NCBI GenBank assembly: GCA_026400275.1
Contig: JAPLPK010000191.1
Coordinates: 1 to 64,000 of the forward strand
DNA: 64,000 nt
Source: Burkholderiales bacterium
Lineage (GTDB): Bacteria; Pseudomonadota; Gammaproteobacteria; Burkholderiales; Burkholderiaceae_C
Reading direction: 5' to 3'
Positions 33,302-35,502 of the stretch are shown one piece after another (positions within the stretch are counted from its first letter, which is position 1; each line of letters starts with the position of its first letter). A program made the position numbers and the translations under genes. The notes under the pieces were generated by a model. The model ran no database searches and was not told the DNA's origin. It saw only the letters and a list, made by a program, of their open reading frames with translations.

Positions 33302-34132
33302 ATGTCCTGGCACGCCCAACTCGACCTGCATTACCAAAAAGAAGCTGCACGCAGCATTGCCCGCCACCTGCACAAAGGGCCGCTGCGCATTTTGCAAAGC
33401 CTGTACCCAGAGGGTGATGCGATCTGCCACAACGTACTGGTGCACCCACCCGGCGGCCTGGTCGGCGGTGACACGCTAGACATCACGGTGCGGGTGGACA
33501 GCGGCGCCCATGGCCTCATCACCACGCCCGGCGCAACCCGGTTTTACCGATCCGCCGGCGAAGCGGCACTGCAAAACACCCAGATCACGCTGGCCCCTGG
33601 GGCCCGAATGGAATGGCTGCCCAGCGAGGCGATTTGCTACAACCAGTGCCTGGCCGAAAACCGCCTGCGCTTCCAACTGGAGCCCGGCGCTGAGCTAATA
33701 GGCTGGGACGTTACCGCCTTCGGCCTGCCGCAGGCGCAGCAGCCGTTTGTGCAAGGCCGTTTTTGCCAGCACCTGGAGCTGCCCGGCGTATGGCTGGAGC
33801 GCGGCACCATAGACGCCAGCGACACCCGCCTGCTGGACAGCCCGCTGGGCCTGGCCGGCAACAAGTGCATGGCCTCGCTGTTCTTCCTGGCCGGCACCCG
33901 GCTGGACAATGCACGCCGCGCCGCCGCGCTGGACGTGGCCCGCCAAGTCATCGACAGCCACCCGCTGCGCGACAAAGCCGGCGCCACCAGCCCCGACGGC
34001 CAGGTCGTCATCGTCCGCTGCCTAGCCCCGCTGGTAGAACCCGCCATGGATTTGATGAAACAGGTCTGGGCCGCCTGGCGCGCCCACTTCTGGCAGCTAC
34101 CCGCCACCAAGCCACGCATCTGGGCGATGTAG
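33302..34132 (+). CDS. ureD: Urease accessory protein UreD
   Basis: LHPPGGLVGGDTLDITV, TPGATRFYRSAG, WLPSEAICYN. Confidence 0.92.
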   Translation: MSWHAQLDLHYQKEAARSIARHLHKGPLRILQSLYPEGDAICHNVLVHPPGGLVGGDTLDITVRVDSGAHGLITTPGATRFYRSAGEAALQNTQITLAPGARMEWLPSEAICYNQCLAENRLRFQLEPGAELIGWDVTAFGLPQAQQPFVQGRFCQHLELPGVWLERGTIDASDTRLLDSPLGLAGNKCMASLFFLAGTRLDNARRAAALDVARQVIDSHPLRDKAGATSPDGQVVIVRCLAPLVEPAMDLMKQVWAAWRAHFWQLPATKPRIWAM

Positions 34133-34134
34133 AA

Positions 34135-34191
34135 GAAATAGGCCGCTAGCGCATATAGAACCTGCGCAGGCAGCTATCAAAAATGTAGTAT
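34135..34191 (+). repeat. Dispersed hairpin repeat copy R8
   Basis: aaataggccgctagcgcatatagaacctgcgcaggcagctatcaaaaatgtagta, 2 nt after the ureD stop. Confidence 0.8.
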
Positions 34192-34199
34192 AGAGGTAT

Positions 34200-34380
34200 C
34201 AGACAAGCTCAGTGGGAAAACTGGCCATCCCGTCAACGACGAGACTGTCTGGCCCAGAAACACCGCGGAACTGGCTATGCCAGGCCGCAGGTGTTGCCCC
34301 CTGCATGTCACATCGGTTTTTCAAACCGATGTGAGGGGGGTTGGCGAAAACATGTGGCATCGGCTTTTCAACCCGATGCC
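34200..34380. ncRNA. Candidate structured RNA / multi-hairpin region, strand unresolved
   Basis: At least five helices: CAGACA/TGTCTG enclosing CGTCaacGACG; AACACCGCGGaaCTGGCtatGCCAGgCCGCaGGTGTT; CACATCGGTTT-ttc-AAACCGATGTG; GGCATCGG-N9-CCGATGCC. Confidence 0.45.
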
Positions 34381-34407
34381 GGGGAAGTGTGTAGCCTGGG
34401 GGTGTGC

Positions 34408-35502
34408 CTAAACTTGCCCTACTAGCATCTGCACAAACATCTGCAGCTTGGTATTGGTCTCGGCGCTCAGGGCCGTGAACTCCAGCCCGGCCAGCAACAG
34501 GCCGTCTTCGTGCTTGGTCTTCATCACACGGGCGTAGATGTCGGTGACCGGGTATTCCACCAGGGTCATGTCGAAGTTCAGCTTCACGTCAAAGCCGACT
34601 TCCAGCGGCAGGTCCAGCTCCAGCAGCACGCCGTGGTAGCCAATGTCCAGGATATGCGCGCGGATCGGGTGGGGCAGCACCGTGCTGCCTTCCAGCACCT
34701 GCAGGTCGCAGGGAATGCGCACCTCGGCGCGGTGGCTGCGGCGGAACTCCTGGCGTGGCACTTTGAGGTGCAGCGCGGGTATGGAGATCAACTCGCGCAC
34801 CTTCACCGGCACCAGCTTGCCGGCCACGAACACCTCCACCGGGTCGGTCACCACCACCGAGCCATCGCAGCGCTGGTAGGTGTTCTCGCTGATCAGCACC
34901 TGGCCGCGCAGGCTGAAGGATTCGATGCGCGACGCCAGGCTGACCTCGTTGCCAATCACCGTGTACTGCGAAAAAGCCTCTGAGCCAAAGCGCCCGGCCA
35001 TCACCGAGCCGGTGTTCAGGCCTATGCCCATGTACAGCTCGGGCATGCGGCCGCGCTGGTACTGGTCGTTCAGCAGGCGCATGGCGATCTGCATTTCCAC
35101 CGCGCAAGACAGGGCGCGCATCACATCGTCCGGGCGCTCCACCGGCGCGCCAAACAGCACCGTCATGGACTCACCGGTGAACTTGTCGATGGTGCCCTGG
35201 TAGCGGTAAATCACCTCGCTCATGCGCTCCAGGCACAGGTTGAGCATGGTCACGATGGTTCCCGCAGGCTGGGTGGCGGTCAGCGCGATAAAGCCGCGCA
35301 AATCCGCCACCAGTATGGTCACGTCGCGCTTGACCACCGCCAGCTCGGGCCCTGAGTCGGGGGCGCCCAAGGCACCGTCCACGATGGCCGACAACTCGGC
35401 CTGCAGCGCGGGCGACACAGCTGTGCCGGTTTCGCGCGCCACCAGTGCTTGCAAGCGGCGTTGTGTCTCCGTCCGGGTATCAGTTTTCATGCGATTGGAC
35501 AT
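34408..35502 (-). CDS. Class III adenylate/guanylate cyclase with C-terminal PilZ-like domain
   Basis: VTILVADLRGFIALT...FTGESMTVLFGAP...GIGLNTGSVMAGRFG...VIGNEVSLASRIE; C-terminal RRSHR ... DIGYHG. Confidence 0.88.
   Translation of the reverse strand: MSNRMKTDTRTETQRRLQALVARETGTAVSPALQAELSAIVDGALGAPDSGPELAVVKRDVTILVADLRGFIALTATQPAGTIVTMLNLCLERMSEVIYRYQGTIDKFTGESMTVLFGAPVERPDDVMRALSCAVEMQIAMRLLNDQYQRGRMPELYMGIGLNTGSVMAGRFGSEAFSQYTVIGNEVSLASRIESFSLRGQVLISENTYQRCDGSVVVTDPVEVFVAGKLVPVKVRELISIPALHLKVPRQEFRRSHRAEVRIPCDLQVLEGSTVLPHPIRAHILDIGYHGVLLELDLPLEVGFDVKLNFDMTLVEYPVTDIYARVMKTKHEDGLLLAGLEFTALSAETNTKLQMFVQMLVGQV

Follow-up and report, generated by a model that had tools for sequence, protein, structure and literature searches.

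The structured DNA at 34200–34380 of the window (the whole stretch of 64 000 nucleotides analysed here) belongs to a dispersed, mobile palindromic element that occurs in 88 full-length copies in its own genome. The element folds into three stems, and it nearly always lies directly behind stop codons with a fixed polarity. It is very probably, if not provenly, the uncharacterized Beta-proteobacterial repeat element (BRE; Hot et al., 2011), as matched by published description rather than by sequence. We consider it reasonably probable that it is a non-autonomous REP-like mobile palindrome, very probably BRE, that acts stop-proximally in the manner of a ribosome termination structure (RTS) or REP.

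The region between the genes (34133–34407) is bordered by ureD and a nucleotide cyclase–PilZ gene, which converge on it as the first-pass annotation had described (Table 1). All of the hairpin pairings named there are found in the sequence, and its description of the region as highly structured is borne out by folding: the reverse strand of 34187–34410 folds to −91.6 kcal/mol, compared with −70.3 ± 4.7 kcal/mol for 200 dinucleotide shuffles (z = −4.52, with none of the 200 as good). The 96-nt copy L028 gives a z of −2.0. The lack of a T-tract that had been observed is borne out: the window element has no T-tract or U-tract terminator on either strand. A sigma-70-like promoter was not found in it. 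The annotation recognized no known RNA family, and Rfam agrees, with no family at the gathering score in the element and a tRNA as the sole match in the window; family membership is ruled out on this score. At E ≤ 0.5, nothing relevant was returned for four other element loci.

The borders given in the annotation had to be redrawn, as the repeated unit spans 34252–34404 rather than 34200–34380. The junction that it proposed (CAGACA at 34200–34205 with TGTCTG at 34246–34251, with inner GGGA/TCCC and CGTC-aac-GACG) is present as a pairing but, with its span of 34200–34251, falls in a locus-specific tail, and was therefore ruled out as a part of the family. The two hairpins that it took to be related tandem units both exist, but are the expanded P2 tip and the expanded P3 of one element. 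The mRNA-sense strand of the window copy is the minus strand, which reads CACCCCCAGGCT..., and the model match is drawn on the plus strand, where it ends in the terminal GGGGGTG; CACCCCC begins 3 nt beyond the point where the cyclase–PilZ gene stops. If transcribed, the window element would mostly be the start of the 3′UTR of the neighbouring gene, here on the minus strand. A second dispersed palindrome family, of the GCTAGCGC..GCAGCTATCAAAA type, adjoins the element and is also seen beside several other loci.

Table 1. Features of the ureD/cyclase–PilZ locus in window coordinates
Feature	Coordinates	Strand	Evidence
ureD, urease accessory protein	33302–34132	+	Pfam PF01774, 1.6e-47
Short pre-existing palindrome GCTAGCGC...GCTATCAAAA, another dispersed family	34140–34186		In empty sites too
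Variable tail with CAGACA..TGTCTG junction	34187–34251		Missing from the empty sites of three congeners; differs in occupied G004
Dispersed palindromic element copy (BRE-like)	34252–34404	−	Covariance model R1, 81.6 bits, full length
P1, covarying stem	34259–34295		9/15 pairs with two-sided changes (88 copies), 99.1% paired
P2, CCCCC/GGGGG stem; long apical hairpin here (TCACATCGGTTT/AAACCGATGTGA, 34308–34334, inside CCCCCT/AGGGGG)	34297–34340		Pairing in sequence and covariance model
P3, GGC/GCC stem; expanded here by hairpin GGCATCGGCTT/AACCCGATGCC (34356–34380)	34343–34396		Pairing in sequence
Terminal GGGGGTG (CACCCCC on the mRNA strand)	34398–34404		Information content of the end
Nucleotide cyclase–PilZ gene, stop codon abutted by the element	34408–35502	−	Pfam PF00211 and PF07238

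A first DNA search of the window's own genome found about 40 further places with the P1 hairpin (with 40 of 202 candidates scored). Covariance model R1, which was built from 39 copies, retrieves the 88 full-length copies with scores from 117.6 down to 58.8 bits and lengths of 79–153 nt (median 96). The window copy is the longest, and only it and L012 (151 nt) combine an expanded P2 tip with an expanded P3; the long apical P2 hairpin is present in about 15 of the 88 copies and the long P3 in six. On the drawn strand, the element consists of CCAG, P1, P2 (CCCCC/GGGGG), P3 (GGC/GCC), the tip of which is very variable between copies, and the terminal GGGGGTG. Its ends, as defined by information content, are GGCW-CACCCCC and CTGGAAGGG. 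P1 contains 6 bp, one unpaired base, 4 bp, a 2/1 internal loop, 5 bp and a 3-nt loop, and its unpaired features recur in another Burkholderiales family as AT/T and a one-base bulge.

Collection of homologues and a search for covariation, which the annotation had suggested as a check, yielded strong two-sided changes across the 88 genomic copies. Pairing is seen in 98.5% of cells, and two-sided changes affect 15 of the 26 pairs (281 cells, which are not independent events since the copies are related). The covariation score is 0.323, compared with 0.128 for shuffled controls and at most 0.093 for slid controls. Wobble states are rare, with 11 G–T and 13 A–C among 2251 cells, 2207 of which are Watson–Crick, and show no strand bias. 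Stems that are kept only as the RNA of one strand are normally expected to have more G–U on that strand. With G–U nearly absent and unbiased between strands, it may be as DNA that the palindrome is maintained, and there is no sign of selection on the RNA of one strand. The proposal of a novel noncoding RNA thus survives in part: the region is structured, covaries and has no Rfam match, yet as one of 88 dispersed mobile palindromes it is not an RNA gene standing on its own, and a promoter was not found in the window copy. The annotation had named a match to a known mobile palindrome with no RNA function as one of the outcomes that would speak against an RNA; the element is a dispersed mobile palindrome, very probably BRE by description, but its structure covaries.

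The position of the element relative to genes follows a rule. In 62 of the 65 scorable copies (those with a called stop on the CACCCCC side), the distance from the CACCCCC end to the stop codon is −2 to +12 nt, compared with 13.9 copies expected from uniform placement in the same intergenic space; at the P1 end of the own-genome copies there is no stop-codon preference. The same holds in independent named genera, where the stop codon is at most 12 nt from the CACCCCC end in 54 of 62 copies (those in which a long open frame terminates no more than 60 nt from that end) and the other end is flat; gene calls in these genera and in the own genome are simple open-frame calls. Beyond the GGGGGTG end, a start codon follows at 5–23 nt in seven to nine own-genome copies, and in the copies closest to it (5–15 nt) GGGGGTG is the only Shine–Dalgarno-like sequence there. 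Neighbouring genes are co-directional at 57 of 87 copies and convergent at 15.

At L044:991–1088 and L041:956–1050 the stop codon is supplied by the element (AAA-GGC-TAA from GGCTAACCCCC), and an open reading frame of 232 aa runs at its 3′ end into the copy at L049:5447–5541, its C-terminal residues seemingly being element-derived.

Comparison of related species indicates that sites change rapidly. Two species have the element at the ureD/cyclase–PilZ site and three do not: among the four congeners with conserved gene order there, a copy is present in G004, and in G002, G003 and G007 the genes are separated by just a short spacer that holds the older GCTATCAAAA palindrome. When 38 stop-proximal gene ends of the own genome were used as probes, orthologous gene ends were occupied in six of 36 cases in G007 and two of 35 in G003. 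In the alignments, the inserted DNA follows the stop codon and precedes the next gene, also at sites where the two genes had nearly touched, and the congeners contain from 14 to over 100 copies. Since most sites differ between species, the element appears to move or turn over fast; and because most copies are young but almost all of them conform to the position rule, we infer targeted insertion or fast selection rather than slow purging. At L144 (G003:C1:2369166–2369766), a stop codon is directly followed by a third long hairpin repeat (CCCTCACCCTAACCCTCTCCC...); at this site the window genome has a BRE-like element.

No long target-site duplication was found, as the gene end of a locus resembles its own downstream tail no more closely than the tails of other loci. 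A clear 24-nt imperfect flanking direct repeat, stop codon included, is present at one copy only (L090:1001–1079) and is perhaps a target duplication, or chance. No transposase was found beside the element copies examined. The genome has a single Y1 (IS200-like) transposase gene (L049:3322–4041, minus strand), with the nearest copy 1.4 kb away and none on its other side within the 8-kb stretch, and nearly all relatives likewise have a single Y1_Tnp gene whatever their copy number. A RAYT link was ruled out on these grounds, the gene being unflanked by copies and present regardless of their number. The element is presumably mobilized in trans by an enzyme.

The element extends well beyond this genus, with matches to covariance model R1 in several families of the order. 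A DNA pattern scan found it in Bordetella, Achromobacter, Pigmentiphaga, Polaromonas, Variovorax, Curvibacter, Hydrogenophaga, Rubrivivax and others, and whole genomes contain 23 copies in Bordetella sp. BOR01, 27 in Achromobacter agilis, 90 in Curvibacter delicatus and at least 144 in Variovorax sp. CF313. Matches in plasmid records were limited to six, all partial, from Variovorax and a single Comamonadaceae strain. Copies of 84–85 nt lie behind genes in two Bordetella records, and family f4 (G122/G261) has copies of 75–85 nt, mostly as tandem pairs to quadruples.

In the mechanism that we favour, the element would insert, or be retained, immediately after a stop codon that its CACCCCC end faces, and would become the first ∼100–150 nt of the 3′UTR of the gene, as a series of three stems that begins no more than 12 nt beyond the stop. 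Placed there, it would prevent ribosomes that have terminated from sliding on into the following gene, could slow terminating ribosomes and may protect the 3′ end of the upstream mRNA. Related effects are known for other structures at gene ends: E. coli REPs less than 16 nt from the stop codon reduce translation and deletion of REPs from 3′UTRs shortens mRNA half-life (as reported in PMC12306157), and re-initiation is under the control of stable structures whose centre lies about 5 nt past the stop codon (Chemla et al., 2020; PMC7518266). By analogy, an effect of the element on translation or mRNA decay may be expected. Two questions become open to test: how repeats reach their place after stop codons, and whether a single mobile element adjusts translation termination and mRNA decay in scores of genes at once.

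We also considered a more elaborate arrangement, a portable ribosome-gated switch carried on the stop-targeting mobile DNA palindrome, with two C5 tracts, CACCCCC next to the stop and that of P2, as competing partners of a single G5 tract. A terminating ribosome would cover the CACCCCC by the stop, forcing P2, and in an idle message the first C5 (CACCCCC) would pair and close the whole element. The lengths of the P2 run and the terminal run covary outside the own genome (odds ratio of 18 over all sets; 8/10 versus 4/17 within genera, p = 0.007), but the own genome shows no such covariation, and where it is seen it may be due to common descent. We regard the switch as improbable.

The element could instead be selfish mobile DNA only, a palindrome recognized as a single strand by machinery that prefers gene ends, with no effect at the RNA level; its position would then reflect target choice plus the removal of harmful insertions, and its stems would be recognition sites. 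The scarcity of G–U and its lack of strand bias, the fast turnover of sites and the fixed unpaired bases of P1 (the 2/1 loop and the one-base bulge), which are shared by the own and other families and resemble those of protein-recognized DNA hairpins, agree with this account. However, uniform insertion and purging would not yield a 0–12 nt window with fixed polarity, given that tens of nt of intergenic space are available, and neither a mobilizing enzyme nor a duplication was found. We hold this account to be somewhat unlikely. An independent small noncoding RNA with its own promoter recalls the bprJ small RNAs of B. pertussis, which were detected by Northern blot and overlap a BRE copy (published section of PMC3110155). 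Here, however, the copies adjoin dozens of different genes, the window copy has neither a promoter nor a terminator and its site is empty in three congeners, which makes such an RNA very unlikely. Least credible is an intrinsic bidirectional terminator for convergent genes: strong hairpins do lie between such genes at the window locus, but the GC stem is followed by a U-tract on neither strand, and most copies have co-directional neighbours.

The reading of the element as a stop-proximal mobile palindrome can be set beside four known systems. REPs (the GTAG and CGTC superfamilies; PMC3733652) are likewise dispersed extragenic palindromes, many of them behind genes, but are 20–40 bp long with a GTAG or CGTC tag, whereas the element has 79–153 nt and three stems, and by information content an unpaired tag of either kind was not found at either end; it also departs from the REP/RAYT arrangement in that the Y1 transposase of its own genome is unflanked by copies. 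Like an RTS (PMC7518266), the element places a stable mRNA structure directly behind the stop, as judged from its predicted fold, but an RTS is a general statistical feature of genes and the element is a mobile repeat of fixed sequence and polarity. Bor-1 (Cozzuto et al., 2008; PMC2267715), compared through its published description, is a structured intergenic Bordetella repeat of 93–117 nt. BRE is the closest: the published section (PMC3110155) describes an intergenic repeat that has 75–91 bp and forms tandem arrays in Bordetella, and that is found in Bordetella, Polaromonas and other Comamonadaceae. The taxa agree with those of the homologues found here, and the 84–85-nt copies behind Bordetella genes and the mostly tandem 75–85-nt copies of family f4 are broadly in keeping with the rest of that description. 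The neighbouring genes are co-directional or convergent at all 13 published loci (our reading of Table 3 in PMC3110155), as a stop-anchored element requires. The window genome differs in having dispersed single copies that are often longer, and that section gives neither stop-codon anchoring nor a stem architecture. A repeat that was noticed in Bordetella in 2011, and for which no function was given, very probably emerges here as a structured, fast-moving gene-end element of fixed polarity that reaches at least 144 copies per genome across Burkholderiales.
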